Source of the DNA: Geomonas ferrireducens
Lineage (GTDB): Bacteria > Desulfobacterota > Desulfuromonadia > Geobacterales > Geobacteraceae
Assembly: GCF_004917065.1 (NCBI RefSeq)
Contig: NZ_SSYA01000002.1
Coordinates: forward strand, 349,897 to 413,896
Direction: 5' to 3'
Length of the DNA stretch: 64,000 nt
Shown one piece after another: positions 2,258 through 30,592 of the stretch; the stretch's first letter is position 1, and every line of letters starts with the position of its first letter. The notes below the pieces were generated by a model. The model searched no databases, was not told where the DNA came from, and worked only from the letters and a program-made list of their open reading frames with translations. The position numbers and the translations under genes were made by a program.

Positions 2258-2770
2258 ATGGCAGAATTTTGCGAAGAGGCATTTGACGTATTGAAGGTCG
2301 ATAAAAGGGATTACGTTCCGACCACCCTCGAGGATGAGGTGCGGGTCGACAAACTGGTCAGCGACCTGCTGCACCGTTTTTACGAGGAGATCCAGCAGAC
2401 GGGCATGTCGCCGGAACAGGCGACGGCACTGGCCGGCGCCGCCGATTACTTCACCCGCGATTTTGTCGTCTCCATCAAGCAGCGCAGCATCTTCGACGAG
2501 CGTGCGGGGATCGTGCGTCAGTTCGCCGGCAACTGGTACATCGTCAACACCATGGAGCCGCTCATCGACGAGATCGAGGGTTACCTTGCCGGGGTCCGCG
2601 AGTTCTACCGTTTCCTTTACGGGCACCAGTTGATCTCGCTCAAGTTCCTCCAGGCCATCGAGGCTGAATGCTCGGAACTCGACTACTACGCCGGGCGCAT
2701 CGAGAGCTTCTGGGATATCGTCGGGGACGGGTATCTCACCTGGGAGAAGGAGTGCACGCTTAAGGACTAG
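2258..2770 (+). CDS. Conserved hypothetical acidic protein
   Basis: The product is a soluble acidic protein of 170 residues with no signal peptide or TM helix. It is predicted to be mostly helical. I do not recognise the family. The ATG at 2258 has AGAGG five bases upstream; an in-frame GTG at 2252 is less likely. The gene stands alone between two blocks of GTTCAACGTT repeats, so it is probably its own transcription unit. No catalytic motif or cysteine pair suggests a function. Confidence 0.6.
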   Translation: MAEFCEEAFDVLKVDKRDYVPTTLEDEVRVDKLVSDLLHRFYEEIQQTGMSPEQATALAGAADYFTRDFVVSIKQRSIFDERAGIVRQFAGNWYIVNTMEPLIDEIEGYLAGVREFYRFLYGHQLISLKFLQAIEAECSELDYYAGRIESFWDIVGDGYLTWEKECTLKD

Positions 2771-2804
2771 AACCCGTTCAACCTTCAACGTTCAACGTTG
2801 AAAC
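2771..2804. repeat. GTTCAACGTT-type short repeat
   Basis: It holds three overlapping GTTCAACNTT units followed by CAACGTTGAA, directly after the stop codon of the preceding gene. It is the partner of the block at 2111-2235. Confidence 0.5.
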
Positions 2805-2825
2805 CTTGCTCCGATTGGCAAAATC

Positions 2826-2887
2826 CTCCCCTCCCTCCGGGCCTTCGCCCACCGTAGGGCTTCGGTCCGCAGGCGGGAGAGGGGGGC
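2826..2887. repeat. Dispersed palindromic element, copy A
   Basis: It has the order CTCCCCTCCCTC, GGGCCTTCGCCCACCGTAGG, CTTCGGTCCGCAGGCGGGAG, then AGGGGGG. The outer CCCTCC and GGGAGAGGG arms pair, and GGGCCTTCGCCC forms a small inner hairpin. The element at 10819-10877 has nearly the same core, so this is a repeated element and not a simple terminator. Confidence 0.7.
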
Positions 2888-2968
2888 ACGGTGGTGACCA
2901 TAAAAACGTCCTGACCAGCCGACCTCTTCATCGCTCTCGCTACTCAACACTCACGGAGCCCATGCCGT

Positions 2969-4345
2969 TTGAAAGACCTAATCGCCAAAGTCCGCAACCA
3001 AAACCTCTTCTCCACCGGTGAAACCGTGGTGGTCGCGGTCTCGGGCGGCGCCGACTCGGTGGCTCTCCTCGATATCCTCACCCGGCTCGATACTGAACGC
3101 CTGAAACTCATCGTCGCCCACCTGAACCACTGCCTCAGAGGCGCGGAATCAAACGAAGACGAACGCTTCGTTGCCGACCTCGCCGCCCGCTACCATATCC
3201 CTTTCCTATCGATACGGGTCGATGTCGCCTCGTTCGCCGCTGCGGAAGGGCTTTCCCTTGAAGACGCCGGACGTCAGGCACGCTACGCATTTTTCCGCGA
3301 GGTCGCCCGCCGTCACGGCGCGACCAGCATCGCCTTGGCCCACCACATGGACGACCAGGCCGAGACGGTGCTGATCCGCCTCTTGCGCGGCTCCGGCGGC
3401 GCCGGGCTGAGCGCCATGGCTGCGGTCGGCGACAACATGCTGAAACGGCCGCTCCTGAAAGTAACCCGCGCCGAGCTTGAGCGTTACTTGACAGAACACG
3501 GCCTAAGCTGGCGCACCGACTCGACTAATGCGGACACCGCGATCCTGCGCAACAGCATCCGCCACGAGCTGATCCCACTGCTTAAAAAGTACAACCCCAA
3601 GGTGACCGAGCGACTCGCCGCCACTGCGGAAATCCTCGCCTCGGACGAGGAACTCCTCGAGCAGCTGACCGACGAGACCTTCGCGCGGTTGGCCCGCAGT
3701 GAGGATGAAAGCGTCCGCCTGGGGATCGCCTCCCTGCTCGGCGAACGCCGCGGCCTGCGTCTGCGCCTGTACCGTCACGCGCTGCGCGAACTGCGCGGAG
3801 ACCTCATGCGCATCGCGCTGGCGCACCTCGAGGCGATCGACCGCCTCGTCGCCTCCAGTCGCCCCAACGCGAGCTTAAACCTCCCGGACGATCTGCGTGT
3901 CGAGCGCAGCTACGACGAACTTCGCTTCACCTCGGTAACGAAGCCGATCGAGCAGAGATGGGAAGTGGCGATTTCGGGGGAGGGGAACCACCCCTTGCCG
4001 AACGGCATGACGCTCAGCGTGCAGCGGGTGCCACGGCCTGCCGACCTCGTTACCGGTTCTGAGAAGATCGCTTACGTGTCGGCGGAAGCTGCACCTTTTC
4101 CATGGCTTGTGCGCCCTTTTGCGGCCGGTGACCGCTTCACCCCAATGGGGCTGAACGGCTCACAGAAGGTGAAGGAGCTCTTCATCAACAAGAAACTCCC
4201 GCCGCACGAGCGCAGCAGGGTGCCGCTTGTTTTCAGCGCAGGGGATGTCATCTGGGTAGCCGGCGTGAGAGTTGCCGAGAAGGGACGGGTAAAACCCGCA
4301 GCTGACGCGGTTTTGCGTTTGGAAATTCTTGAAATTACACCTTAA
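2969..4345 (+). CDS. tilS: tRNA(Ile)-lysidine synthase
   Basis: TilS adds lysine to C34 of the tRNA-Ile CAU anticodon using ATP, which switches it from methionine to isoleucine decoding. It is essential in most bacteria. The PP-loop SGGADS lies at residues 25-30 near the N-terminus, followed by HLNHCLRG and an AHHMDDQAET segment. The C-terminal TilS domain carries RPFAAGDRFTPMG at about 375. At 458 residues it has the full two-domain length. The start is TTG at 2969 with GGAG ten bases upstream; the ATG at 2962 is out of frame. It is followed by ftsH, a common neighbour in many bacteria. Confidence 0.95.
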   Translation: MKDLIAKVRNQNLFSTGETVVVAVSGGADSVALLDILTRLDTERLKLIVAHLNHCLRGAESNEDERFVADLAARYHIPFLSIRVDVASFAAAEGLSLEDAGRQARYAFFREVARRHGATSIALAHHMDDQAETVLIRLLRGSGGAGLSAMAAVGDNMLKRPLLKVTRAELERYLTEHGLSWRTDSTNADTAILRNSIRHELIPLLKKYNPKVTERLAATAEILASDEELLEQLTDETFARLARSEDESVRLGIASLLGERRGLRLRLYRHALRELRGDLMRIALAHLEAIDRLVASSRPNASLNLPDDLRVERSYDELRFTSVTKPIEQRWEVAISGEGNHPLPNGMTLSVQRVPRPADLVTGSEKIAYVSAEAAPFPWLVRPFAAGDRFTPMGLNGSQKVKELFINKKLPPHERSRVPLVFSAGDVIWVAGVRVAEKGRVKPAADAVLRLEILEITP

Positions 4346-16365: not shown

Positions 16366-17781
16366 TCAAGCGGACTGCGACTTGAGACGCTTGTTGAGAG
16401 TCTGGCGCGCAACGCCTAGAATGTTCGCCGCCATCCCCTGGTTCCCCTTCGCCATCCGCATTGCCTCGGCGATCATCTGCTCCTCAACCTCTGCTATGGT
16501 CGGGAAACGGCCGAAAACCGCGCCAAAGGCCTGCTCCAGGCTTTCCGTCCGCGGCGCCGGGGCCTCCGGCACGCTTTGCACCTCGGACCCCATGGCGCTG
16601 CGGAAGGTCTCCATGGAGAGAACGCCTCCTTTATGCCGCAGGACCGCTTCGGAGACGAGCGCCTCCATCTCGCGCACGTTCCCCGGGAAACGGTAGAGGG
16701 CCAGCATGACGGCGAGCTCGGGGGGGGGAGTAGGCTTCTTCTTATCCAGTTGAGTCGCGGCCTTCTCGAGGAAGTGGTCGAGCAAAAGCGGGACATCGTC
16801 CAGCCTTTCGCGCAGGGGGGGGAGGTGTACCCGGTGCGCGCATAGTCTGTAGTAGAGGTCGTTTCTGAACTTTCCCTGTTTGATGAGTTCCTGCAGGTCC
16901 CGGTTCGTCGCCATGACGATGCGGGCGTCGCTCTTCTTTACGAAGTCGGAGCCGACCGGGTAGTACTCCTGCTCCTGTAAAAGGCGAAGGAGCTTGATCT
17001 GCGACATCTCGCCCAGATCTCCGATCTCGTCGAGAAAGAGCGTCCCGCCTGACGCGCGGGTGATGAGCCCGTCACGCGCCACGTCGGCACCGGTGAAGGC
17101 TCCCTTTACGTGGCCGAAAAGGGTATCGGAAAACATGTTGTCGTCCAGCCCCGCGACGTTCAGAGGAACGAAGGGACCTGTGCGCCCGCTCAGGTCGTGG
17201 ATGGCGCGGGCGGCGAGCTCCTTCCCCGTGCCGGTCTCGCCGGTGATGGTGACAGGCTGCCTGGTCCCGGCGACCACCTCGATGTACTGGAAGACGGCGC
17301 GCATCGCCTTGTTCGATGAGACGATGCTGGAAAAGGCCTCCGGGTGGTCCAGGCGGTCGGTGAACATGTACTGTTTCAAGGTGGAAAGCTCGCTGGAGAG
17401 GCTTTTCAGCTCAAGCGCCTTTCCAACCGAGGTGAGCAGGCGCTTCACGTCGATCGGCTTCACCATGTAATCGAAGGCGCCCCCCTTCATGCAGCTCACC
17501 ACCGTCTCCACCTCATTGCTGGCGGTGGAGACGATCACCTTGATCTGCGGGTACCGGTTTACGATCTGCGGCAGCAGGTCGAGGCCGGATAGGTTGGGCA
17601 TGTGCAGGTCGAGTACGATGACATCGACCTCTTCGCGCTCCAGAAGCGGCAGCACAAGGCGACTGTCGCTTTCGGTGAGGATGTCGCCGAAACCGCTGTT
17701 TTTGAGGCAGGAGCGGCAGCCGTCGAGGATGTCCGGTTCGTCGTCCACCAGCAAGATCCGTTGCGTGTTGCGTCTTTTCAC
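16366..17781 (-). CDS. Sigma-54-dependent response regulator, NtrC/AtoC family
   Basis: The 471-residue protein has three domains. A receiver (about 8-125) carries phosphoacceptor D58 in VLDLHMPNLSG. An AAA+ domain has Walker A GETGTGKE at about 180-187 and the sigma-54 contact loop GAFTGA at about 225-230. A C-terminal Fis-type helix-turn-helix carries GNQGMAANILGVARQTLNKR. It would activate RpoN promoters after phosphorylation. The GTG start at 17781 has GGAGGT nine bases upstream; upstream in-frame sequence is not coding-like. It is the last gene of the chemosensory operon and probably its transcription output. Confidence 0.93.
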   Translation of the reverse strand: MKRRNTQRILLVDDEPDILDGCRSCLKNSGFGDILTESDSRLVLPLLEREEVDVIVLDLHMPNLSGLDLLPQIVNRYPQIKVIVSTASNEVETVVSCMKGGAFDYMVKPIDVKRLLTSVGKALELKSLSSELSTLKQYMFTDRLDHPEAFSSIVSSNKAMRAVFQYIEVVAGTRQPVTITGETGTGKELAARAIHDLSGRTGPFVPLNVAGLDDNMFSDTLFGHVKGAFTGADVARDGLITRASGGTLFLDEIGDLGEMSQIKLLRLLQEQEYYPVGSDFVKKSDARIVMATNRDLQELIKQGKFRNDLYYRLCAHRVHLPPLRERLDDVPLLLDHFLEKAATQLDKKKPTPPPELAVMLALYRFPGNVREMEALVSEAVLRHKGGVLSMETFRSAMGSEVQSVPEAPAPRTESLEQAFGAVFGRFPTIAEVEEQMIAEAMRMAKGNQGMAANILGVARQTLNKRLKSQSA

Positions 17782-17882
17782 AACAGTAAAACCTCCAGCA
17801 CAATTGACTCGACAAAATTCTTCGGCAGTTCCAGGTGCGGTCTGAGCAAGCGGGAAGCTGCACCCGCCTTTCCGGGGATTTC

Positions 17883-19406
17883 CTATGAACCGGTTCCGTC
17901 CCGCCCAGGTTCGAGGGGGGGCAGGGTGAAGAAGAAACTTGCCCCTTTGTCGACTTCCCCTTCCGCCCACACCCGGCCGCCATGCCGTTGCACGATGCGC
18001 TGCACGGTGGCGAGCCCGACGCCGAAACCCTTGAACTCCCGGTCGGAGTGAAGCCGCTGGAAAGGGCTGAATAGCTTGCCGGCGCATTCCATTTTGAACC
18101 CGGCGCCGTTGTCGCGCACGACGAAGGCCTCTGTACCGTCCACTTCCGTCTTCAGGAACTCGATGCGCGCCTCATCTTTTTGAGACGAGTACTTGCATGC
18201 GTTGGAGATGAGATTTTGCAGCACCACCTTCAGGAGGTCAGGGTCGCCGTAAGCGGTCAGGTCCGGTGCGATGGAGAAGAAAAAACGTCGGCCCGGCTCG
18301 GCCAGTTGCTGAGTCGCGGTGATGAGGAGCGCCATCTCGCTCAGGTCGACCGGCTGCTTCGAGAGCTCGGAGCGCGATACGCGCGAGAACTCAAGCAGGG
18401 TGCGGATCAGCTGGTTCATGTTCACCGTCTCGTTATAGATGATGTCGATGAACTCCTTGCACCCCGGCTCGAGCTTCTCACCGTAAATTTCCAGGATCAC
18501 CTGGCAGTAGCCGTTGATGTTGGTGAGCGGGGCGCGCAGGTCGTGTGAGACCGTGTAGCTGAAGCCTTCGAGGTCTCGGTTGGCGATCTCCAGCTCTTGG
18601 GCCCGAGCGGAGAGTGAGTCGTTCAGCAGCCTGATCTCGCGCTCGTTTTGCACCCGTTCAGTGATGTCCTCCAGTACCGCCACGAAATTGCTGAGGGCGC
18701 CGGCTTCGTCGAAAACGGGAGATATGGAGGCGGCCTCGTAGAAAGGGGCGCCGTTCTTGCGCTCTCCGGTCAGCTCCCCGTGCCACTGGTTCCCGGCGGC
18801 GACCGAGGACCAGATGGCATCCCCACCTTGCAGAATGGTGGCGAGGTGGCGTCCCTTGACCTCCGACTCCTGGCGTTCGGTCAGTTCGACGAATTTCGGG
18901 TTCACGTATTCGATGAAGCCCCGTGGATCGGTGATCACGATGCTGCTCGGGCTTTGCTGCACGGCCCGGGAAAGCTTCCGTACGAAGGCCTGCTGCGCGG
19001 CGAGTTCCCTCTCGATGGTCAGGGTACCTAGGCACGCTTCGATGGCAGCGAAGAGTTTCGCGGACTCGATCGGCTTCAGAACGTAGCGCGACACGCCGAG
19101 CTCGATCGCCTCGATCAGGTATTCCATGTCGCTATGCGCGCTCGTGATGATGACCGGCAGGGATGGTTTGAGCTCGAGAAGCTGTCGTGACATCTCGATG
19201 CCGCTCATGGCGGGCATCTTAATGTCGGTGACCACGAGGTCCGGGGAGATCCTGCCGAAAAGCTCCAGCCCCTTTGCCCCGTTTTCCGCACCACGGACGG
19301 TCAGGCCGGGAAAACGGCGCGCGAGAAGGCCCAGCACCGTTTCACGCGTGACTTCCTCGTCCTCTACGTAGAGCAGGGTGAACCCCGCCCCTGGTTTCGT
19401 TGACAT
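17883..19406 (-). CDS. Soluble receiver-PAS-histidine kinase
   Basis: The 507-residue protein has no TM helix. An N-terminal receiver carries D61 in VVTDIKMPAMSG. A PAS domain follows (about 140-260, SSIVITDPRGFIEYVNPKF), then HisKA with the phospho-histidine near 288 in SHDLRAPLTNING. The HATPase ends with GFGVGLATVQRIVQRHGG. It could take phosphate from the CheA of this operon on its receiver and pass a signal to the NtrC-type regulator next door. That route is inference from gene order. It starts one base after the end of the preceding kinase gene. Confidence 0.9.
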   Translation of the reverse strand: MSTKPGAGFTLLYVEDEEVTRETVLGLLARRFPGLTVRGAENGAKGLELFGRISPDLVVTDIKMPAMSGIEMSRQLLELKPSLPVIITSAHSDMEYLIEAIELGVSRYVLKPIESAKLFAAIEACLGTLTIERELAAQQAFVRKLSRAVQQSPSSIVITDPRGFIEYVNPKFVELTERQESEVKGRHLATILQGGDAIWSSVAAGNQWHGELTGERKNGAPFYEAASISPVFDEAGALSNFVAVLEDITERVQNEREIRLLNDSLSARAQELEIANRDLEGFSYTVSHDLRAPLTNINGYCQVILEIYGEKLEPGCKEFIDIIYNETVNMNQLIRTLLEFSRVSRSELSKQPVDLSEMALLITATQQLAEPGRRFFFSIAPDLTAYGDPDLLKVVLQNLISNACKYSSQKDEARIEFLKTEVDGTEAFVVRDNGAGFKMECAGKLFSPFQRLHSDREFKGFGVGLATVQRIVQRHGGRVWAEGEVDKGASFFFTLPPLEPGRDGTGS

Positions 19407-19407
19407 G

Positions 19408-20781
19408 CTATACCTCGATTCTGAACTCGGCCCCGTTCCCGGTGTTTCGCGCCGAGAGCGAGCCGTTCATGCTTTTTTCCACGATGTTCTTGGCCATGAA
19501 CAGGCCGATGCCGGTTCCTTTTCCCTGTTCCTTGGTGGTGAAGTAGGGCTCGAAGATGCGTCCCATGATATTGACGGGGATGCCGCCAGCGTTGTCGGCG
19601 ATGGTGATGACGGATTTTTCCCCCTCGCGGGCCACCGTTACCTTGATCCTCGGTTCCGCAATCCTTTTTTCGCATAAGGCGTCTGCGGCGTTGTTGAGGA
19701 TGTTGAGCAGTACCTGGGAAAACTCGTTGGGGTGCCCTACGATGGGCGGCACGTCGCCGTCCGCGACCTCAACCTGGATGCCCTTGTCGGCGAGGCTTCC
19801 CTCCATGAGCGCCAGGGTGCGACGGACCACCTTTTTCAGTTCGAACGCGCTCTTCTCCCGGTCCGGCGTGAAGAAGTTCCTGAAATCGTCGATGGTCTGC
19901 GACATGTGCCGGACCATCTGCATGATCTTCCCGGTGCTCGTCTCCAGGTACTCGCGGCTGAAGTTGCCGTACTCGTAGGAGAGGGTGAGGTCCTGGACCA
20001 GCAGCCCCACCGCGTTCAGCGGCTGGCGCCACTGGTGCGCGATGTTGCCGATCATCTCGCCCATCGCAGCCTGGCGGCTTTGCTGCATGAGCACTTCGTC
20101 CTTCTTCCTCAGTTCGTCCATAGCCTGCAGACGTTCCGCGGTTTCCTGGGTGAGGGCTGCGGTCCGCTCCACGACGCGCTGCTCGAGCTCCCGGTTCAGG
20201 CTCGACAGGGACGCCTTCGCCCCAAGCAGTTCCTGGTTCTTTTCCGCAGCCATCTCGTAGGTGGCGAGGAGCAGTTCGATGGTGTGGGCACAGTCGGCCT
20301 GAACGCGGTAGTTTTTGCCTCGATAGGCGACGGCGACCTCTCCGTCGTTGTCACCCTGGTGGCAAACCCGTTCCCCGTTCAACACGGCGCTGATGCGGGA
20401 TAGGAGCAGTTTCTTGCTGTACGGCTTCGATACGAAGTAGTTGGCGCCCACTTCGAGGCTGTGCAGCACGTCCGCCGGATCGTTCAGGTGGGTGAGCAGG
20501 ATGATCGGTGTTTCACCCCCTGTCTTCGACTCTCTGATGCGGCGGCAGAGCTCGAAGCCGTCCATCCCCGGCATGAGAATGTCGCTGATCACCAGATCCG
20601 GCATTTGCGGGAGGGCCTCGAGCGCCTCGTCTCCGTTTCTAGCCACGACGACCCGGTACCCCTGTTCGGCGAGCATCTGCTCGAGGAGCTTCGCCTGGGT
20701 GGGGCTGTCATCTACGATGAGGATGCGGTGCGGAACCGCTGTCGAGCTGCTTTGATTCATGTTCGTTGCCAACTCCTTCAT
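19408..20781 (-). CDS. Soluble receiver-histidine kinase
   Basis: The 457-residue protein has an N-terminal receiver with D67 in VISDILMPGMDG, then a coiled-coil linker (about 160-225). A HisKA domain of the HQWRQPL type has its histidine near 249. The HATPase ends in GKGTGIGLFMAKNIVEKSM. No TM helix is present, so it must be controlled through its receiver. The ATG at 20781 overlaps the cheB stop as ATGA, suggesting translational coupling. An alternative ATG at 20760 has AAGGAG upstream at a long spacing. Confidence 0.9.
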   Translation of the reverse strand: MKELATNMNQSSSTAVPHRILIVDDSPTQAKLLEQMLAEQGYRVVVARNGDEALEALPQMPDLVISDILMPGMDGFELCRRIRESKTGGETPIILLTHLNDPADVLHSLEVGANYFVSKPYSKKLLLSRISAVLNGERVCHQGDNDGEVAVAYRGKNYRVQADCAHTIELLLATYEMAAEKNQELLGAKASLSSLNRELEQRVVERTAALTQETAERLQAMDELRKKDEVLMQQSRQAAMGEMIGNIAHQWRQPLNAVGLLVQDLTLSYEYGNFSREYLETSTGKIMQMVRHMSQTIDDFRNFFTPDREKSAFELKKVVRRTLALMEGSLADKGIQVEVADGDVPPIVGHPNEFSQVLLNILNNAADALCEKRIAEPRIKVTVAREGEKSVITIADNAGGIPVNIMGRIFEPYFTTKEQGKGTGIGLFMAKNIVEKSMNGSLSARNTGNGAEFRIEV

Positions 20782-21839
20782 TTCAAGGCGGCGGCGCCTT
20801 TAGCCGCCAGCGTGGTCAGCAGACCGATGATGCCGTCGGGGGATAGGACGAGCTGGGCCGCGTCGATCTGGATCGCTTCGCCCGGCATCCCGAAGACCAT
20901 GGACGTCTCCTTGTCCTGCGCGACGGTGACGCCTCCACTGTTGCGGAGCGTCTTGAGTTCCAGGGCCCCGTCCTTCCCCATGCCGGTCAAGAGCACCCCG
21001 ACCGCGTGCCGACCGTAGTGCTGAGCCACGGTGCGAAAAAGCGCCGACACGGCGGGACGCACGCCGTTTTCAGGGTCCGTGCTGGTGAGGCGGATGCGCC
21101 CTTGAGGGGCGACTTCCATGTGGTAGCTGTCGGGCGCCACGTAGACCCGACCCGGTTCCACGGTCATGCCGTCGGCAGCGAGGAGCACCGGCATGGTGGA
21201 GTGCTGGTTCAGCCAGTGCACGAAGTTTTCCGTGAAACCTACGGCCATGTGCTGCACCACGAGGACCGCGGCGGAAAAGGATGCCGGGAGCGCGGAGAGT
21301 ATGCGGCGCAAAAGGGGCGGACCGCCGGTCGAGGCGCCGATGGCCACCACTTTTATCGAAGCGGTGGGGGCGGTCCGGGGCGTCTGGACTGCGGCTGGCG
21401 CAGGCGCGATCTTGCCGGTCGGGAACACGCGGCGCACCACCTTGATCTCGGACATGAGCTTCACATGGCGGATGAGGTCCGCCACCGACTCGCGGTAATC
21501 GGGAGAGCCTGGCGCGGCGGGCTTGGCTAGCACCATGAGGGCTCCCGCCTCCATGACCCGGAACAGGGTGGCCGAATCCTTCGGGTTCATCTTCCCGGTG
21601 ACGATCACGATGGGGACGGGGCAGCTCGACATGATGGCGCGGGTGGCGTCGAAACCGTCCATGCCTGGGAGGTTGACGTCCATGGTGATGATGTCCGGCC
21701 TGAGGCTCTTTGCGGCCTCCACGGCGGACTCGCCGCTCTCCGCGGTGCCGATCACGGTGAGCTCGGGGTCCGCGTCGAAAGCGGCCACCAGCGCCTGCTG
21801 CACGGTTTTTGAATCTTCAACTACGAGAATTCTGATCAC
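20778..21839 (-). CDS. cheB: Chemotaxis response regulator protein-glutamate methylesterase CheB
   Basis: CheB removes methyl groups from receptors and is switched on by phosphorylation. The 353-residue protein has a receiver with D54 in TMDVNLPGMDG, a proline/alanine linker, and the esterase domain with GASTGGPPLL (serine near 170), QHMAVGFTENF and GMGKDGA. The catalytic triad residues all appear present. The start is GTG with AAGGAAG upstream. In the operon it corresponds to WspF and should act on the receptor at 24139. Confidence 0.95.
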   Translation of the reverse strand: MIRILVVEDSKTVQQALVAAFDADPELTVIGTAESGESAVEAAKSLRPDIITMDVNLPGMDGFDATRAIMSSCPVPIVIVTGKMNPKDSATLFRVMEAGALMVLAKPAAPGSPDYRESVADLIRHVKLMSEIKVVRRVFPTGKIAPAPAAVQTPRTAPTASIKVVAIGASTGGPPLLRRILSALPASFSAAVLVVQHMAVGFTENFVHWLNQHSTMPVLLAADGMTVEPGRVYVAPDSYHMEVAPQGRIRLTSTDPENGVRPAVSALFRTVAQHYGRHAVGVLLTGMGKDGALELKTLRNSGGVTVAQDKETSMVFGMPGEAIQIDAAQLVLSPDGIIGLLTTLAAKGAAALK

Positions 21840-21851
21840 GCGGCTTCCTTG

Positions 21852-24092
21852 TCAGGTGAGTTTCTGGATGACCTCGATGAGGTTGGTCTGGTCGAAGCTG
21901 CTCTTCACGAGATAGGCGCTCGCACCGACGTCGATGCCGCGCTCCCGGTCGGTACGCGACTCGAGCCCGGTGACGAGGATCACGGGGAGCGAGGCGAGCT
22001 TCGCGTCGGCGCGGATCGACCGGGTGAGCTCGAAGCCGTCCATGCGCGGCATCTCGATGTCGGAGACCACCACGTCGCAGGGGTCGGTTTTAAGTTGTGC
22101 CATGGCGTCCGCCCCGTCGACCGCGGTGCGCACGAGGAAGCCGGAGGCCTCCAGGATGTTCTTAAGCAAGGTCCGCGAGGTGATGGAATCTTCCGCCACC
22201 AGAACGGAAACCCGCGCCTGGCGAGCCGGGGCGCTTGGTACCGGCAGGGAGGTGACGTCGGCACCGCCCCCCAGGGCGGAGCGGAAGAGGTCGGCAACGT
22301 TCAAAACGGGGACCACGCGCCCCGAACCGAGCACGGTGGCACCAGCGACGTTGCGCACCCTCGAGAGCTGGCGCCCGAGCGGCTTCACCAGTATCTCCTG
22401 CACCCCGATCACCTGATCCACGGCGAAAGCGATGCGCCGGTCGGCGGCGCGCAAGAGGACGTAAGAGACCGTGGTGTCCGGCTCGACGCTCCGGCGTCCA
22501 GTTTCCAGGATGCCGGCCAGTGAGACGAGCGGGAGCACCTCGCCCGCCGCGACCACGGTGTCGCGGTTTTCCACCCGTTTCACCTCTGAGAGCGGCACGC
22601 GCGCGCTCAGCTCGACCACCGTCGCCGGGATGGCGCAGTAGCGGCCGGCGACCTGCACCAAGAGCGCGCGCATCCGGGCGAATGAGAGCGGGAAGACGAG
22701 CCGGAAGCTCGTTCCCGCGCCGGGCGTGCTTGTGACCGAGACGTGCCCCCCCAGCCGCTCCAGCGTCTCGCGTACGATGGCGAGGCCGACCCCGCGTCCG
22801 GAGATGCTGCTGATGGTGCCGCTGGTGGAAAGCCCGGACTCGAAGATGAATTGAAGCGCCTCGGCGTCGGGCATGCGCGCGATGGCCTCCTCGGTGGCGA
22901 GTTCCCGGCGCAGCGCAGAACGTTTCACCTGCTCGAGGTCGATGCCGCAGCCGTCGTCGGTTAGGATGAGTTCGGCGCGGTTCGCGTCCTGCAGCCTCAC
23001 CTCGACGCTCACCGTGCCGCGGCGCGGCTTTCCCGCGGCTTCCCTTGCCTGCGGCAGCTCGATGCCGTGATCTACCGTGTTGCGCACGAGGTGCAAAAGC
23101 GGCTCCATAAGCTCGGCCAGGATGCGGCGGTCGAACTCCAGCTCTCCTCCGGAGAGGGAGAAGTCGGCCTCCTTGCCGAGCTCGCGGGTAAGGTCGCGCA
23201 CCAGTTTCGCGAACGGGTCGAGGATCGAGGAACATGGGAGGAGCTGCAGCTTCTTCATCTCCTCGAGGAGCGGGTCGACGAGAGCCTGCAGCGAACGGGT
23301 GTGCTTTTCCGCGTTCTTCTCCAGGAGGCGCAGGCGCCCCTCCACGGTACGTTCATGCCGGCACCTCTGTTCGAGAAGTCCGGCCAGCGAGGCCTCACCG
23401 TCGGTACCCTTCTTGAGCGCGCGCCTTGCCGCCTCGAGGGAGCGGTCGCGCTCAGCGCCACGCTCGGCTACCTCGCCGGCAAGGGTGGAGAGTTCCTCCT
23501 GCAGTACCGAGGCGGCAAGTTTCGCGGAGACCAGTTCCTCGGACTGCAAAAGGAGCGTCTCGAGAAGCCGCGCGGAGACCCGCACCGTTTCGTCGGCGGC
23601 ATAGGAGGGCGGTGAAGGGCGTGGCTTTTCCGGGGTAGGCGCCTGGGTGGCCGCAACGGCAACAACAGGGGGCGTGGGCACCGTCGGAAGAGGAGAGGGG
23701 GGAACGCTTTGGGAAGCACTCTGTTGCGGCGCCGGTGCAGGTGCGGCGGTGGGGGCGCCTGCCGGGAAGATGCGGGCCGAAAGCCGGTTTATCTCGCGGT
23801 GCAGGAGATCGAAGGTTTCCATACCGAACTCGGCCTCGCCACGCTTGATCCCTGCCAGCACCTCCTCCAGCTCCTGGCAGTCATGGGCGACGTCGGCGAG
23901 GTTCACGGCGTGCGCCGCCCCTTTCAGGGTGTGCACGCGGCGGAACACCCCTTCAAGCAGGCGCTGCCGCCCTGCCTCCTCCTCTTCGCGTTCCAGGGCG
24001 AGGAGATGGGAGGAGAGGGCGTCCAGGTGTTCCTGCGCCTCTATCGCGAAGGTCGCGAGCAGTTCTTTTAACAGCGCCTCGTGGTCGCTCAT
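21852..24092 (-). CDS. cheA: Hybrid chemotaxis kinase CheA with C-terminal receiver (WspE-like)
   Basis: The 746-residue kinase has an N-terminal Hpt domain with the phospho-histidine H54 in RRVHTLKGAAHAVN. A proline/alanine linker follows (about 110-165), then a helical dimerisation region, HATPase with VDHGIELP and GRGVGLAIVRE, and a CheW-like regulatory domain. A C-terminal receiver has D678 in VVSDIEMPRMDG. No separate P2 domain is evident. This layout matches WspE-type kinases of alternative chemosensory systems. Likely targets are its own receiver, CheB and the receiver domains of the two downstream kinases. Confidence 0.94.
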   Translation of the reverse strand: MSDHEALLKELLATFAIEAQEHLDALSSHLLALEREEEEAGRQRLLEGVFRRVHTLKGAAHAVNLADVAHDCQELEEVLAGIKRGEAEFGMETFDLLHREINRLSARIFPAGAPTAAPAPAPQQSASQSVPPSPLPTVPTPPVVAVAATQAPTPEKPRPSPPSYAADETVRVSARLLETLLLQSEELVSAKLAASVLQEELSTLAGEVAERGAERDRSLEAARRALKKGTDGEASLAGLLEQRCRHERTVEGRLRLLEKNAEKHTRSLQALVDPLLEEMKKLQLLPCSSILDPFAKLVRDLTRELGKEADFSLSGGELEFDRRILAELMEPLLHLVRNTVDHGIELPQAREAAGKPRRGTVSVEVRLQDANRAELILTDDGCGIDLEQVKRSALRRELATEEAIARMPDAEALQFIFESGLSTSGTISSISGRGVGLAIVRETLERLGGHVSVTSTPGAGTSFRLVFPLSFARMRALLVQVAGRYCAIPATVVELSARVPLSEVKRVENRDTVVAAGEVLPLVSLAGILETGRRSVEPDTTVSYVLLRAADRRIAFAVDQVIGVQEILVKPLGRQLSRVRNVAGATVLGSGRVVPVLNVADLFRSALGGGADVTSLPVPSAPARQARVSVLVAEDSITSRTLLKNILEASGFLVRTAVDGADAMAQLKTDPCDVVVSDIEMPRMDGFELTRSIRADAKLASLPVILVTGLESRTDRERGIDVGASAYLVKSSFDQTNLIEVIQKLT

Positions 24093-24138
24093 GTCGTAAT
24101 AGTCACCTTAATTCGTGATCGCCCGCCGCTGAGGGGGA

Positions 24139-25995
24139 TCAGGCGAGCCGGTAGCCGCTCACCAGTTTCTGCAGCTTCTGGTTCAGCTCGTAGAGGTTTT
24201 TCGCCGCCGCTTCGATCTGGCGCGACCCCTCCACGTTCTGATCGCTTGCCTGGTTGATGCTCTGGATGGCGATGGCGATCTGGTCCATGCCGATCGCCTG
24301 CTCCTGGGTCGAGGTGACGATCTGCAGCGTCGCGTTCGAGGAGTCCTCGATGCTCGCGGCGAGCTGGCGGATCGACTCGCCCGCTTCGCTTGACTGCTTC
24401 ATGCCGGCCTCGACCGCCTTGCTCCCTTGCTCGGTGGCAAGGACGGCAGCGGTGGTGGCCTTCTGGATCTGGCCTATGATGCTGCGCACCTGGGAGGTCG
24501 CCTGCTTCGACTGGGTGGCGAGGTTCTTCACCTCCTGGGCCACCACGGCGAATCCTTTGCCGTGCTCACCCGCCTTGGCGGCCTCGATGGCGGCGTTCAC
24601 CGCGAGGAGGTTCGACTGCTCGGCGAGGTCCGCTACCGTGGCGATGATCTCGCCGATGGCCTGGCTCTGCTCGGAGAGGTTCACGATGCGTTCGGCGATG
24701 AAGCCCATGCGCTCGTCGATCCCCTGCATGCCGTCCAGGGTACTGTTCACGGAGTCACGGCCGGTCTTGGCGATCTGCGCGGAGCGGTGCGCCCCCTCAT
24801 AAACCTGGCGCGACTTCTGCGAAGTGAGGTCGGTGGTCTGGCGGATCTCCTGGACCGTGGCGTTGGTCTCGGAGATGGAGGTGGCGGTCTGGGCCGAGCT
24901 GGAGGCAAGCTCGCTCACCGTGGTCATGATTTCGGCGGCGCTCCCTGCGAGGACGCTCACCACCTCGGAGATTTCGAGGCTCAAGTCCCTGAGATTTCTG
25001 GTCATCACGCTGAAGGAATTGCCCAGGCGGTCCTTATCCGAGGCGGGGAGCACCTCGATGGTTAAATCCCCGGCTGCGATGCGGTCGGCGCTGGCGGCGA
25101 GCCTTTTCAGGGAGGCAACCATGTTGCTCATGGCGTTGCCGAAGACGTCGCGCTCGGAGAGGGGAACCACCTCGAGATCGAGGTCGCCGATGGCGATCCG
25201 GTTCGCGTTCTCTCCCATGCGGCGCAGGGAGAGCACCATCTTCCTCATCGCCCGTAAAAGCTGTCCCAGTTCGTCGGGAGAGGCGCTGTCGAGCTCGACG
25301 GAGACGTCCCCCTGGGCCAGGCGGTCGGCGGCCTGCACGGCGTCGTTTAAGGGCCTTGTGATGGATGCGGTGATGGCGAAGGCGATCATGGCGGCGATGA
25401 TGCAGGCGAGTGCCACGAGGACCGCGGTGATCGCGAAGGTGAAGCGCTGGTTCCTTGCGGATTCCGCGGCGAAATTGCTGGCCATTGCTTGGGATGCCTT
25501 CAGCACCTCTTCCACCTGGGCATCGATCTGGGCCACGGTGCGACGGGCGTAGTTCTTGTGGAAGGCGACCGCCTCCTTCACCTTACCCTGCCGGGTGAGC
25601 GCGATGGTCTTGGCGCGGACCTCCTTCCATTGATCCATCGACTCCTTGATCCGGTCGATCTTCGCCTGATCGCCGGGGAAGCGCTCGCGGGCGAGGGCTA
25701 GTCCGCGGTAAACCTCCTGCTCGTCCTTGGCTATCTCAGCAAGGGTCGCTTCCAGGTCTTCACGGTCGGCTGCATATAGGACTACGTCCTTCATACCGCG
25801 GTGCATCCGGGCGATGTTGGTGTCGACCTGCTGGATCGCATTGGTCACCGTGAAGGGGTGCTCGTAGAACTCGCTGAGCAGGCGCCCCTCGGCGGCGAGG
25901 TTCTTGAGGGAGAGCGCGCCGATCAGGACCAGGAACACGAGCAGCACTGAAAAGCCTGCGATCAGTCTGGAGCGGATTTTAAGGTTGCTGAGCAT
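24139..25995 (-). CDS. Methyl-accepting chemotaxis protein with tandem HAMP domains
   Basis: The 618-residue receptor has TM1 at about 10-30, a periplasmic four-helix-bundle sensor (about 31-190) and TM2 at about 190-212. At least two, probably three HAMP-like units follow, marked by repeated ADRLAQGDVSVE, ANRIAIGDLDLE and ADRIAAGDLTIE segments. The signalling domain carries the tip EQSNLLAVNAAIEAAKAGEHG. The C-terminus lacks an NWETF-like CheR tether. It is the only receptor in the operon and should be its input, comparable to WspA. The ligand is unknown. Confidence 0.93.
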   Translation of the reverse strand: MLSNLKIRSRLIAGFSVLLVFLVLIGALSLKNLAAEGRLLSEFYEHPFTVTNAIQQVDTNIARMHRGMKDVVLYAADREDLEATLAEIAKDEQEVYRGLALARERFPGDQAKIDRIKESMDQWKEVRAKTIALTRQGKVKEAVAFHKNYARRTVAQIDAQVEEVLKASQAMASNFAAESARNQRFTFAITAVLVALACIIAAMIAFAITASITRPLNDAVQAADRLAQGDVSVELDSASPDELGQLLRAMRKMVLSLRRMGENANRIAIGDLDLEVVPLSERDVFGNAMSNMVASLKRLAASADRIAAGDLTIEVLPASDKDRLGNSFSVMTRNLRDLSLEISEVVSVLAGSAAEIMTTVSELASSSAQTATSISETNATVQEIRQTTDLTSQKSRQVYEGAHRSAQIAKTGRDSVNSTLDGMQGIDERMGFIAERIVNLSEQSQAIGEIIATVADLAEQSNLLAVNAAIEAAKAGEHGKGFAVVAQEVKNLATQSKQATSQVRSIIGQIQKATTAAVLATEQGSKAVEAGMKQSSEAGESIRQLAASIEDSSNATLQIVTSTQEQAIGMDQIAIAIQSINQASDQNVEGSRQIEAAAKNLYELNQKLQKLVSGYRLA

Positions 25996-26053
25996 GGAAC
26001 CTCCAAAAGTCAGGTTGAGATGGCGGCATCAACCTCGATCTTGATTTCAATGT

Positions 26054-26662
26054 CTACCCGACCTCTTCGTGCACGATGAGGCGCGGGTCGGCCAGGATCC
26101 TGGCCATGTCTAGCAGGGCGAGCCGTTCGGCGGTTACCCCGGCAAGGAACTCGCCTCTCATCCCGGTAAAGGTGTCGGGTGTCGGGTGCAGTTCCGACAG
26201 GGGCAGAGAGCGCATCCCCTCGACGCGGTCGGCCAGGACGCCGAATTCCATGGTGCCGTCGCTTACAACGATCACCCGGTTCAGGTCGGAAAGTCCGGTT
26301 GCCGGGAGTTCGAAAAAGCGGCGCAGGTCGACGATGGAGATGATCTTGCCGCGCACGCTGGTGATCCCCAGGACGAAGGGAGGGGCGCAGAACAAGGGGG
26401 TGAAGTCGGCCAGGGGAAGCGTAGCCGCGATGAAGGAGAGGTCGATGGCGTAGTGCTCGCCGGAGAGGGTGAACTCCAGGCAGTCGACGCAGGCAACACT
26501 CCCGGCGTCCTCGGCAGGTTTTCGGCTCATGACCCGGGCGCGTTCCTGGAGCAGCAACTGCTCGCGCTCGTGGTCGTGCCGGTCCTGGAGAACGGCGTCG
26601 AAGGCAGCCTGCTGGCGGGTGAGCAGTGAGGCCCAGTCTATGGCGGAACTTCTCTGCGACAT
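26054..26662 (-). CDS. cheW: CheW-like coupling protein, downstream copy
   Basis: The 202-residue protein has a helical N-terminal extension of about 65 residues followed by a CheW domain (CLEFTLSGEHYAIDL to the C-terminus, with GITSVRGKIISIVDLRRFF). It would bridge the receptor and CheA. The extension is longer than in a minimal CheW, as is common for WspD-like proteins beside a CheR-TPR. It lies between the broken cheR gene and the receptor gene. Confidence 0.9.
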   Translation of the reverse strand: MSQRSSAIDWASLLTRQQAAFDAVLQDRHDHEREQLLLQERARVMSRKPAEDAGSVACVDCLEFTLSGEHYAIDLSFIAATLPLADFTPLFCAPPFVLGITSVRGKIISIVDLRRFFELPATGLSDLNRVIVVSDGTMEFGVLADRVEGMRSLPLSELHPTPDTFTGMRGEFLAGVTAERLALLDMARILADPRLIVHEEVG

Positions 26663-26695
26663 GCTTCTTCTCCTAAGCGTGAAAACCGTGCTGCC

Positions 26696-28202
26696 TTACC
26701 GCCTGCTGATGCCCTTGATCAGGTGGATCAACATGCCGGCTGTCATCCCCTCGGTGTCGGGGATGGCCTCGTTCGGGTCGAGCCGCTGCAAAAGGCGCAG
26801 GGCATTGCCGAAACTCTGTTCCGCCTCCTGCCGCTCGCCGCGCTTGCGGAATAGGTTTCCGAGCGCGAAATAGGCGAGCAGGTAGTCGTGGTCGAGGTAG
26901 AGTGCGTGCTTAAGCGAAGTGATGGCCCCTTCGTCATCCCCCGCCTGCTCGCGGATCATGGAGAGGAGGTAGTGGCTGTTCGGGTTCAGCCGCTCGAGCC
27001 GGATCGATCTTTCGCAGAGCTCGCGAGCCTCACCGTAGCGCCCGAGGTTCGCGTAGCAGCGAGCCGCGAGGGCGAGCTGCTCCGCATGCTCTCCCCCGGC
27101 AAGCGCAACTTCGGCTGCCCTTTCATAGGCTCCCGTGTCGAAGAGCGAAAGCGCCTGCTGCAGCACGTCCGGGCCCTGCGGTGTGGCTGCTATCGCCGGC
27201 GCCGCATGGAGTTCCGCCCCGCCCCTCTTTTTGTTGACCGGGGGCTGCTTCTCCGCGGCGGATGTCATGGTCCGCCCGACCACACGCCCGGGGTATGCAC
27301 CTGGCAGGGGCGCCGGCATGCCGGCAGTAACCCGAAACGCGGCTCGCGTGGCTTTCTGGCGCGGGTCGCTTCTTTTCAGCGCGAGGGCGCCATCGAAGAT
27401 GTGGCAGGTGAAACCTTCCACCTTGTGGTGGTCCACCTCGGTCGGTCCCATGAAGAGCCAGCCGCCAGGCCTCAGCGCGGCGGAACCTGGCGACGGTCTT
27501 CTCGATCTGCTCCTCGTGAAAATAGAGCATCACGTTGCGGCAGAAGATGACATCCGCACCCCCGGCAATGGGGGAAGGGGTATCGGCGTTCTCGGCGAGG
27601 TTCAGATGCCCGAAGCGGACCATCTCCCTGATGCCGTTTGCGATCTCGAAGCTGCCGTCCGGCCGCTGGGTGAAATAATTCATGAGCCACCCGGGGGCGT
27701 TCCGGAAGGACCATTTGCCGTACACCCCCAGCCGGGCCCGCTCAAGGGCGTGCTCGTTAAGGTCCGTGCCGAGGATGGTGATCTTCCAGCCGGTCGTGTC
27801 CCGGAGTACACGGCTCAGGATGATGGCGATGCTGTACGGTTCCTCACCGGTGGAGCATCCGGCGCTCCAGATCCGGATGGTGCGGTTGCCGCGCCGCCTG
27901 GCCGCGATCAGTCCCGGGAGCACCCGTTCCTCGAGCACCTGGTAGCTCTTCGGGTCGCGCAGGAAATAGGTCTCGCCGATGGTGAGGGCGCTGGCCAAAA
28001 GCCGCAGCCGCTCCTTTCCCAGGGGTGCGGACATGAGCTGCAGCAGGTAACGCTCCAGTTCCTCGACCCCTTCCTGGTGCGCAAGGGTAGCCATCTTCTG
28101 CGCCAGTTCGGCAAAGCGTTCCTTGCGGAAGTGAAGCCCAAGTTCTTTTGCTACGAACGCGGCGAACAGCTGCAGCGTCGCGCTTGTCTGCGAATCCGCC
28201 AT
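26696..28202 (-). pseudogene. cheR: CheR methyltransferase with C-terminal TPR domain, broken by a frameshift
   Basis: The first part (28202 to about 27477) encodes a CheR domain with IGETYFLRDPKSYQ, the SAM loop IWSAGCSTGEEPYSIA and DVIFCRNVMLYFHEEQ. The expected next segment, ALRPGGWLFMGPTEVD, is in the +1 frame, starting near 27476. That frame runs on through an Ala/Pro linker and three to four TPR units to a stop at 26696. Read together they make about 500 residues, the layout of WspC-type methyltransferases. As sequenced, the first frame runs into unrelated sequence and stops at 27123. An ATG at 27451 could restart the TPR half. A sequencing error in the GC-rich CGCCGCG stretch cannot be excluded. 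Confidence 0.8.
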
Positions 28203-28203
28203 G

Positions 28204-28725
28204 TCAGGTGCGTTCCAGCGCCGCGGCGATCTGCGCCTCCTCGTCAGGGAAGAGCAGGGCGTCGAGGTCGTGGATCAGTACCAGTCCGTCCGCGGTCCGC
28301 GCCACTCCGGCGACGAACCCGGCTCCCGCCACGATTTCGTCGGCGGCAAGGATGCCGGCCGCAGGCGGCTCGATGACCCCTTCGGAACCGTCCACGACCA
28401 GGGCAAGGGTGAGCCTGCCGGTGCGCGCGATGACGAACTGGTCGCTCAAGGCGACGGGGCGCTCGGGGAGCCTGAAGCGCCTCCTCAGATTGATAGCGGG
28501 AACGATCTCTCCGTGCAGGTCCAGGATGCCCATTACAACGTCCGGGGCCTTGGGGAGCTGGGTGAGGGCCGCCGCCCGGACCACCCGTTTTACGTGGTCC
28601 AGACGCAACGCGTAACGCTGGTCGTCAAGGGTGAAGATGAGCAGTTGAATCGTGTCGATCGGTCTTCTCCAATTAGCGGCGTCTATGCGGCTCTCTAATG
28701 TACCTCGTGCCGGGCTTGGATTCAA
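28204..28725 (-). CDS. cheW: CheW-like coupling protein, upstream copy
   Basis: This is a single CheW domain, with IQLLIFTLDDQRYAL, VMGILDLHGEIVPAINLR and DGSEGVIEPPA. It is the first gene of the chemosensory operon, one base before the cheR start, in the position of WspB. The start is unclear. The longest frame begins with TTG at 28725 but has no ribosome binding site and reads through non-domain sequence. A good GGAGAAG at 28664-28670 sits just before an ATC codon at 28657-28659, exactly where the domain begins. Confidence 0.85.
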   Translation of the reverse strand: MNPSPARGTLESRIDAANWRRPIDTIQLLIFTLDDQRYALRLDHVKRVVRAAALTQLPKAPDVVMGILDLHGEIVPAINLRRRFRLPERPVALSDQFVIARTGRLTLALVVDGSEGVIEPPAAGILAADEIVAGAGFVAGVARTADGLVLIHDLDALLFPDEEAQIAAALERT

Positions 28726-29797: not shown

Positions 29798-30592
29798 ATG
29801 CTGGGTGCTCTGACCGGAGACATAGTCGGCTCCATCTACGAGTGGAACAACATAAAGAGCACTGAATTCCCGCTCTTCCAGGATAGCTGCCGCTTTACCG
29901 ACGACTCCGTACTCACCGTGGCGCTCGCCGACGCGATCATGACCGGCGCGCCGTACGACGACACCATGAGGCATTACTACCGCAGCTACCCGGACGCGGG
30001 GTACGGCAGGGGCTTCGTTGCGTGGGCCGAGTCGGACGCCCCCAAGCCTTACAACAGCTGGGGCAATGGCGCCGCGATGCGCGTGAGCCCGGTGGGGTGG
30101 GCCTGCGACACGCTCGCCGACGCTTTGTGCATGGCGCGGAACTACACCCTCCCGACCCACGGGCACCCCGAAGGGGTAAAGGGGGCGCAGGCCGTTGCCG
30201 GTGCGGTCTTTCTGGGGCGCAGCGGCGCCTCAAAGGACGAGTTGCGCAGCTTCATCGCCGGGGAATTCGGCTACGATCTCGCGCTCAGCTGCGATGAGAT
30301 CAGGCCCTCGTACCGTTTCGATGTCTCCTGCCAGGGGACGGTTCCGCAGGCTGTCACCGCGTTTCTGGAATCAAACGATTTCGAAGGCGCCATCCGCCTC
30401 GCCGTCTCCCTGGGCGGCGACTCAGACACCCTGGCCTGCATCACCGGGGCGATTGCCGAGGCCTTCTACGGTGGGGTCCCGGCTCGCATCGCGGAGCGGA
30501 CCATGGATTTTCTGGATGATCGGTTGAGGCGGGTGACGGTCGCTTTCGAAGCGCGCTTCGTTGCGGGGCGCTTTGCTGCTGCAAAAGGGTAA
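29798..30592 (+). CDS. ADP-ribosylglycohydrolase family protein
   Basis: The 264-residue protein belongs to the DraG/ARH3 fold. The metal-binding acidic residues are visible in FTDDSVLTVALADA near 31-45 and in the late loop GGDSDTLACITGAIAEAFYG near 206-225. The first residues GALTGDIVGSIYEW are also typical. Members remove ADP-ribose from proteins or small molecules. No DraT or other ADP-ribosyltransferase gene is nearby, so the target is open. It ends just before a bidirectional terminator. Confidence 0.9.
   Translation: MLGALTGDIVGSIYEWNNIKSTEFPLFQDSCRFTDDSVLTVALADAIMTGAPYDDTMRHYYRSYPDAGYGRGFVAWAESDAPKPYNSWGNGAAMRVSPVGWACDTLADALCMARNYTLPTHGHPEGVKGAQAVAGAVFLGRSGASKDELRSFIAGEFGYDLALSCDEIRPSYRFDVSCQGTVPQAVTAFLESNDFEGAIRLAVSLGGDSDTLACITGAIAEAFYGGVPARIAERTMDFLDDRLRRVTVAFEARFVAGRFAAAKG

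Follow-up and report, generated by a model that had tools for sequence, protein, structure and literature searches.

A Wsp-Type Chemosensory Operon with a Putative Kinase-Chain Output in Geomonas ferrireducens

Adaptation and high gain are well-known properties of chemosensory arrays; the path by which arrays with alternative cellular functions (ACF) influence transcription has, to our knowledge, been made clear in only a few instances. The Wsp system, used here for comparison, comprises the chemosensory proteins WspA to WspF followed by the output protein WspR. We analyzed a nine-gene operon in a 64,000-nucleotide stretch of the genome of Geomonas ferrireducens, a member of a genus of metal-reducing soil bacteria (contig NZ_SSYA01000002.1, positions 349,897 to 413,896; this whole stretch is hereafter called the window), in which six chemosensory genes are followed by genes for two receiver-containing histidine kinases (HK1 and HK2) and an NtrC-type activator. 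This locus appears to be best explained as an ACF (Wsp-type) chemosensory operon with a kinase-chain output. A kinase replacing the WspR-type output is already known in kind; the putative tandem kinase chain with its apparently recruited NtrC is the new part.

Approximately 40% of the response regulators in CheR-TPR (ACF) clusters contain a histidine-kinase module (Munoz-Martinez 2012, PMC3447774), and the text sections of that survey, tables aside, describe neither a tandem HK1-HK2 chain nor an NtrC as a third output. In Che3 of Rhodospirillum centenum, as described in the text, the target of CheA3 (likewise a CheA that carries a receiver) is the N-terminal receiver of a hybrid kinase, CheS3; CheS3 in turn acts on another regulator, and the authors conclude that phosphorylation of this receiver has an inhibitory effect on the kinase (PMC3868531). 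That system has a single kinase of this sort together with CheY3, whereas two tandem kinases and an NtrC-type regulator are encoded here. In Myxococcus xanthus, Che3 and CrdS jointly set the NtrC-type protein CrdA, and the model presented in the text has Che3 as a phosphatase in the absence of stimulus (PMC3510030). Our operon has a similar gene content, in that a che cluster is tied to an NtrC-type regulator and a HisKA kinase. In the M. xanthus model CrdA is a common target of Che3 and CrdS; in our operon, two receiver-kinases are interposed. CheA-receiver fusion clusters of Geobacter metallireducens and G. uraniireducens have been likened to Frz, Pseudomonas aeruginosa cluster 3, and R. centenum cluster 3 (Tran 2008, PMC2577667). 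Compared by text descriptions, these "Frz-like" CheA/Y clusters share the CheA-receiver fusion with our operon, and the term NtrC is absent from the main text of that paper. CheA3 of Desulfovibrio vulgaris, as described in the text of PMC3944678, has no bearing on this operon. Our literature search, which did not extend to supplements and figures, yielded no description of a che operon with tandem HK1-HK2 and NtrC.

Operon Structure and Proposed Route

A previous sequence-only reading of the window had listed nine genes in the order given below. Each was confirmed by Pfam, and all are encoded on the minus strand, between 28725 and 16366.

28204-28725, minus strand: first cheW (WspB-like); Pfam CheW, 93 bits.
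27123-28202, minus strand: methyltransferase half of cheR (WspC-like); Pfam CheR, 154 bits, profile positions 2-163 of 195.
26696-27451, minus strand: TPR half of cheR-TPR, in another frame; TPR matches, a single open reading frame (ORF) with cheR in relatives.
26054-26662, minus strand: second cheW (WspD-like); Pfam CheW.
24139-25995, minus strand: receptor (WspA-like) with 4HB_MCP, HAMP, and MCPsignal domains by Pfam; two hydrophobic segments.
21852-24092, minus strand: cheA-REC (WspE-like); Pfam Hpt, HATPase, CheW, and REC; Hpt H54, receiver D678.
20778-21839, minus strand: cheB (WspF-like); Pfam REC and CheB_methylest; receiver D54.
19408-20781, minus strand: HK1, with a receiver (D67), an adaptor, a HisKA-like domain, and an ATPase; Pfam REC and HATPase; HQWRQP box (H249).
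20077-20340, minus strand: within HK1, the adaptor and the start of its helix (residues ~148-235), a beta-hairpin and a helix into the HisKA region.
17883-19406, minus strand: HK2, with a receiver (D61), PAS, HisKA (SHDLRAPL), and an ATPase; Pfam REC, PAS, HisKA, and HATPase.
16366-17781, minus strand: NtrC-type activator, with a receiver (D58), a sigma-54 AAA+ domain with GAFTGA, and a Fis-type helix-turn-helix; Pfam REC, Sigma54_activat, and HTH_8.

The first six genes were correctly described as Wsp-like: one receptor, two CheW, CheR-TPR, CheA-REC, and CheB are encoded in one operon and, as in Pseudomonas Wsp, an output receiver comes after CheB. Unlike in Wsp, the receptor gene is fourth instead of first, the output is a histidine kinase and not a GGDEF protein, and a second receiver-kinase and an ntrC gene lie behind it. 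The reported lack of WspR was also borne out, since none of the 27 GGDEF matches in the window genome (G000; 4.8 Mb in 14 contigs, with G001 and G010 as close relatives) is inside the operon, the nearest being ~14 kb away. The cluster shows the ACF features of multidomain response regulators (HK1 and HK2) and CheR-TPR, and the receiver, the AAA+ domain with GAFTGA, and the Fis-type helix-turn-helix of the last product are all those of the NtrC family. A hydropathy scan detected two membrane segments in the receptor and none in HK1 or HK2, consistent with the view that both kinases are soluble. Their receivers have the intact Asp expected of them: D67 of HK1 is invariant in 10/10 aligned orthologues, and D61 is present in the HK2 sequence. 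Both H54 and D678 of CheA are invariant in an alignment of seven rows. The HisKA match of HK1 scores below the Pfam cut-off.

Although the gene order stood, two gene models did not. The ntrC ORF is open to 18087; its start is placed at ~17781 (GTG), because homology with relatives begins there. The cheR-TPR gene, previously taken as intact, is broken in this assembly at ~27480, its two ORFs lying in different frames, and 2 nucleotides are missing compared with two close relatives (L039 and L040). The 16 same-genus relatives in which the gene is complete all have cheR-TPR as a single ORF; the frameshift may be either a sequencing error or a real loss.

The nine-gene order, surveyed within the genus, is kept in 17 of 19 Geomonas genomes (the window, 15 loci comprising L039-L050 and L052-L054, and G005). 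In G016 (L051), cheW and half of cheR are replaced by unrelated sequence (2600-3800), and the remainder through HK1-HK2-ntrC is kept. In G018 (L058), a metagenome-assembled genome that is 85% complete and has runs of N, HK1 and HK2 alone are visible. The cheB and HK1 genes of the window genome overlap by 4 nucleotides and HK2 begins 1 nucleotide past HK1; the gap between HK1 and HK2 is 1-2 nucleotides in 15 of 20 che loci. Genes were called by a simple codon-GC scheme, which missed HK2 in L170 and cheA in L244 (the latter found by tblastn).

We propose the following route. The receptor would act on CheA, and CheA would phosphorylate D67 of HK1, whose receiver-adaptor would stand in the WspR slot. 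The adaptor helix would hand the state of the receiver to the HK1 kinase, which would phosphorylate D61 of HK2. HK2, tuned by PAS where this domain is present, would then set the phosphorylation of the NtrC-type activator, which would switch on sigma-54 promoters. Every phosphotransfer in this route is predicted from genes, domains, residues, conservation, and neighbourhoods. The step from CheA to HK1 is likely; given this step, transfer from HK1 to HK2 is plausible, and given both, control of NtrC by the chain would be somewhat favored. The whole series from CheA through HK1 and HK2 to NtrC is a tentative and rather doubtful proposal.

The Receiver-Adaptor behind CheB

A CheA profile search of 297 genomes of the phylum (Desulfobacterota), including that of the window, gave 33 that match at 1e-150. 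Twenty CheA loci were fetched and 18 could be read (L220, which was not parsed, and L225, which has a different layout, were left out). In all 18, a gene encoding a receiver comes after CheB (in G285 it stands between CheA and CheB), and in 15 this gene encodes an HK1-type receiver with the conserved adaptor. The outputs behind these 15 receiver-adaptors are ten kinases of several families, two GGDEF domains, and two HD-GYP domains (recognized by a motif read by eye, not by Pfam), with none in one case; the remaining three loci (G172, G285, and G288) have REC-GGDEF without adaptor. Among 18 further loci of the order-level set, 14 have a receiver-adaptor-kinase output (directly after CheA in G095), the others being G022 (which ends at CheB), G020 (unread), G018b (no output gene), and G004b (a kinase without receiver), and no GGDEF motif was found in any readable output gene of this set. 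A contig scan of genomes with HK1 as query was dominated by the kinase core and added few che loci.

Receivers with the adaptor form one group regardless of whether their output is a kinase, GGDEF, or HD-GYP (22 rows; Shimodaira-Hasegawa-like approximate likelihood ratio test, SH-aLRT, 96). In a quick tree this group lies apart from the receivers of HK2, CheA, CheB, and NtrC. A profile of the receiver-adaptor matched 137 places in the window genome at 1e-10, of which HK1 is the only one that matches to the profile end. The scores were 267.3 bits for HK1, 124.6 for the next match, 107.8 for CheA, 60.8 for HK2, and 49.5 for CheB. The two runners-up, by score or by length, are receiver proteins whose matches end short of the profile end; the longest other match (6-186), in a receiver-kinase, is without the adaptor motif. 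In the phylum set, the same profile at 1e-45 found 35 loci, with CheA adjacent in 24. An AlphaFold2 model of HK1 (mean pLDDT 75 and pTM 0.45, a medium confidence at which it was used for the secondary structure of the adaptor only) has a beta-hairpin at 148-161 and a single helix at 164-270 into the HisKA region (block pLDDT 50-87).

Because of these locus, tree, and profile results, HK1 can be assigned to the WspR slot, in which kinases appear to be normal. The sequence-only reading had WspR replaced by the kinases. The part concerning a kinase in the slot stands, and the novelty attached to it was overstated, since kinases are common there both in our loci and in the text of the ACF survey (PMC3447774).

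Three individual loci were also noted. In L243 (G004), the gene behind CheB encodes a 628-residue HK1-type kinase in which no receiver was detected. L209 (G256) and L222 (G131) are Wsp-like operons with an HD-GYP motif (by eye) behind the output receiver, and these outputs possibly serve breakdown of cyclic di-GMP rather than its synthesis.

Pairing of HK1 and HK2

Full-length relatives of HK2 were found in many genomes. Twenty HK2 loci lacking CheA were fetched, and 14 of them have an HK1-type kinase gene immediately upstream (L156-L166, L168, L170, and L172, with HK2 of L170 placed from homology search). All 10 scanned HK1-type kinases of such pairs have PAS/GAF sensors and none has a receiver. 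Behind the pair, REC-GGDEF (L161, L163, and L164, in two of which it comes after a second HK2-like gene) or REC-PAS-GGDEF-EAL (L156) was found. In the HK2 tree, the che-linked members group in a single clade that lies within the diversity of the sensor-paired HK2s. The che-linked HK1 cores also form one clade except for that of G094, a member of another family in which che-HK1 is accompanied by a receiver-kinase with a different kinase core and a receiver of 44% identity to that of HK2; G094 seems to have joined the adaptor to an HK1-type kinase separately. G018 was left out of all trees, G005 out of the NtrC, HK1, and HK2 trees and the column tests, G094 out of the HK2 tree and the HK1 and HK2 column tests, and the unpaired HK2 rows L167 and L169 out of the HK2 kinase tree.

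A plain reading of these data would be that HK1-HK2 is a module of a sensor kinase and a receiver-kinase, the sensor of which was exchanged for a chemosensory receiver-adaptor. HK1 is likelier than CheA to be the donor to HK2, because the HK2 receiver is of another type and HK2 is often found behind sensor-bearing HK1-type kinases. The sequence-only reading had suggested that CheA feeds both kinases. For HK1 this is in line with its WspR position; HK2, with its much lower profile score, does not seem to be fed alike. A related explanation has two parallel branches: CheA would phosphorylate HK1 and HK2 separately, each on its own receiver, and NtrC would be the target of both kinases. In its favor, the receiver residues are intact in HK1 and HK2, the genes are close together in one direction, and phosphorylation of a hybrid kinase receiver by a CheA has a precedent in the text on CheA3 and CheS3 of R. 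centenum (PMC3868531). We nevertheless consider parallel branches unlikely, given that the HK2 receiver is unlike the post-CheB receivers (60.8 vs. 267 bits, and apart in the tree) and that, at loci with no CheA nearby, HK2 is partnered with HK1-type kinases that bear sensors.

A different alternative concerns the sign of the first transfers. H249 of HK1 (window 20035-20037) sits in an HQWRQP box that is invariant in 10/10 aligned orthologues and shared by 33 of the 34 HK1-type cores aligned, the other one having HQWLQP; a Q is also found at the phosphatase position. According to the text of PMC3510030, tested HisKA kinases need E or D beside the histidine, vs. Q in HK1. Since HQWRQP is invariant despite Q in place of E/D, the HK1 subfamily may either follow another rule or have unusual activity. 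Such an unusual box would suit a system in which CheA-derived phosphate switches the HK1 or HK2 kinase off, as proposed for CheS3, or is drained into a sink, and a similar topology with the kinase switched off is described for R. centenum (text of PMC3868531). By analogy, phosphorylation of the receiver may switch the kinase off here as well. The ATP-binding motifs of HK1, which look complete by eye, speak against this, and we regard an inverted sign as quite improbable.

Besides the Q beside the HK1 histidine, several observations weigh against the proposed series. CheA is not adjacent in 11 of the 35 receiver-adaptor loci, and the adaptor-less GGDEF receivers of G172, G285, and G288 fall outside the receiver-adaptor group, so not all outputs in the WspR slot share that receiver. 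The HK1-type neighbor is absent in 6 of the 20 HK2-like loci. A set of 79 loci collected by similarity to HK1 contained 34 without a co-directional gene within 150 bp, 4 at a contig end, and 3 in which no gene was found. For the remaining 38 HK1-type kinases, the next gene runs in the same direction; it encodes a receiver protein in 20 (six of these followers are HK2-like, three of them in Geomonas che operons) and is an NtrC gene in none. In comparisons of che-linked with sensor-paired proteins, 10 of 262 columns of the HK1 core differ, two of them at +8 and +9 from the histidine, vs. 2 of 118 columns of the HK2 receiver (a small change that speaks for the step from HK1 to HK2), and these column tests, like that of NtrC below, set groups of unlike depth against each other. 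The partner choice of HK1 may thus have shifted. In addition, the HK1, HK2, and receiver trees are quick trees without bootstrap.

Across the loci studied, the receiver-adaptor stays constant and the output domain behind it is exchanged, and in the present case a module of two kinases that already existed appears to have been inserted; series wiring of kinases by receivers thereby becomes directly testable. Geomonas suits such a test, as it offers named, isolated strains and three natural variants without PAS input. In these (G004, G008, and G015), the alignment indicates that HK2 is without the PAS stretch, a bare receiver-kinase of 383-384 residues, leaving the receiver as the sole recognized HK2 input.

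At two loci, L161 (G048) and L163 (G051), an HK1-type kinase is followed by two tandem HK2-like receiver-kinases and then REC-GGDEF, a longer putative chain. An MCP gene follows in L161, and a CheB-CheR-like gene is nearby in L156.

The NtrC-Type Activator

The ntrC gene adjoins HK2 in 18 of 19 Geomonas genomes. Its relatives elsewhere share 58-68% identity, and 17 che-linked NtrCs form one clade (100/100). When these 17 were compared with 15 relatives outside che, 9 of 122 receiver columns differed vs. 4 of 342 elsewhere (Fisher P-value = 0.0012). The changed receiver columns include C22 (helix 1), N89 (after strand 4), and I110, V112, and K113 (the loop after the conserved KP). Kinase contacts of receivers lie at such places. 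The position beside HK2 and the changed receiver columns both speak for an NtrC under the kinase chain.

Three points about this gene are unfavorable to the series. First, 11 of the 15 relatives outside che adjoin a kinase similar to a PAS kinase of G016 (the two such neighbor kinases that were checked both have membrane segments). Second, in G016 itself this PAS kinase is kept 3 nucleotides behind ntrC. Third, G023 and G024, from two other genera of the family, have che-HK1-HK2 with no ntrC behind, which suggests that NtrC is dispensable for the HK1-HK2 part; a relative of the G016 PAS kinase is found behind HK2 in G023. These points would all suit an NtrC that is a passenger answering to a kinase encoded elsewhere, with che-HK1-HK2 acting on another target. 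This is a possibility to be taken seriously, albeit on the unlikely side. Against it, no full-length relative of the G016 PAS kinase occurs in the window genome (the best matches reach 39-44% and cover the C-terminal part), che-linked NtrCs have an altered receiver surface, and ntrC stays beside HK2 almost throughout the genus.

The NtrC seems to derive from a family whose members often have PAS kinases as partners and to have been recruited to the operon in Geomonas; the data fit a scenario in which it lost its own kinase and was then re-aimed at the che module. The fullest form of this proposal, a three-kinase linear cascade to a sigma-54 activator in which a portable receiver-adaptor replaced the HK1-HK2 sensor, a local NtrC was re-aimed, and G094 represents a second joining, is unlikely to hold in every part.

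The sequence-only reading, which had tied both kinases and NtrC to the che genes and to sigma-54 transcription, is partly supported overall. The block is kept in most of the genus (17 of 19 genomes); beyond it, the connection loosens, since ntrC is missing from G023 and G024 and HK1-HK2 pairs occur without CheA. A sigma-54 transcriptional output would follow from the domains of the activator. Sites of the -24/-12 type with at most two mismatches numbered 3 in the window vs. 9.25 expected, with none in the operon, so autoregulation by NtrC is not indicated. A looser -24/-12 scan of 19 loci gave scattered weak matches, none common to relatives before cheW or ntrC, and neither scan yielded an NtrC target.

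In two loci of one genus, L159 (G065) and L166 (G082), a divergent NtrC-type gene is directly upstream of the HK1-HK2 pair, possibly an independent link of this pair to NtrC. Finally, an ORF that adjoins the operon in the window (29798-30592), a putative ADP-ribosylglycohydrolase gene, is kept in the genus.

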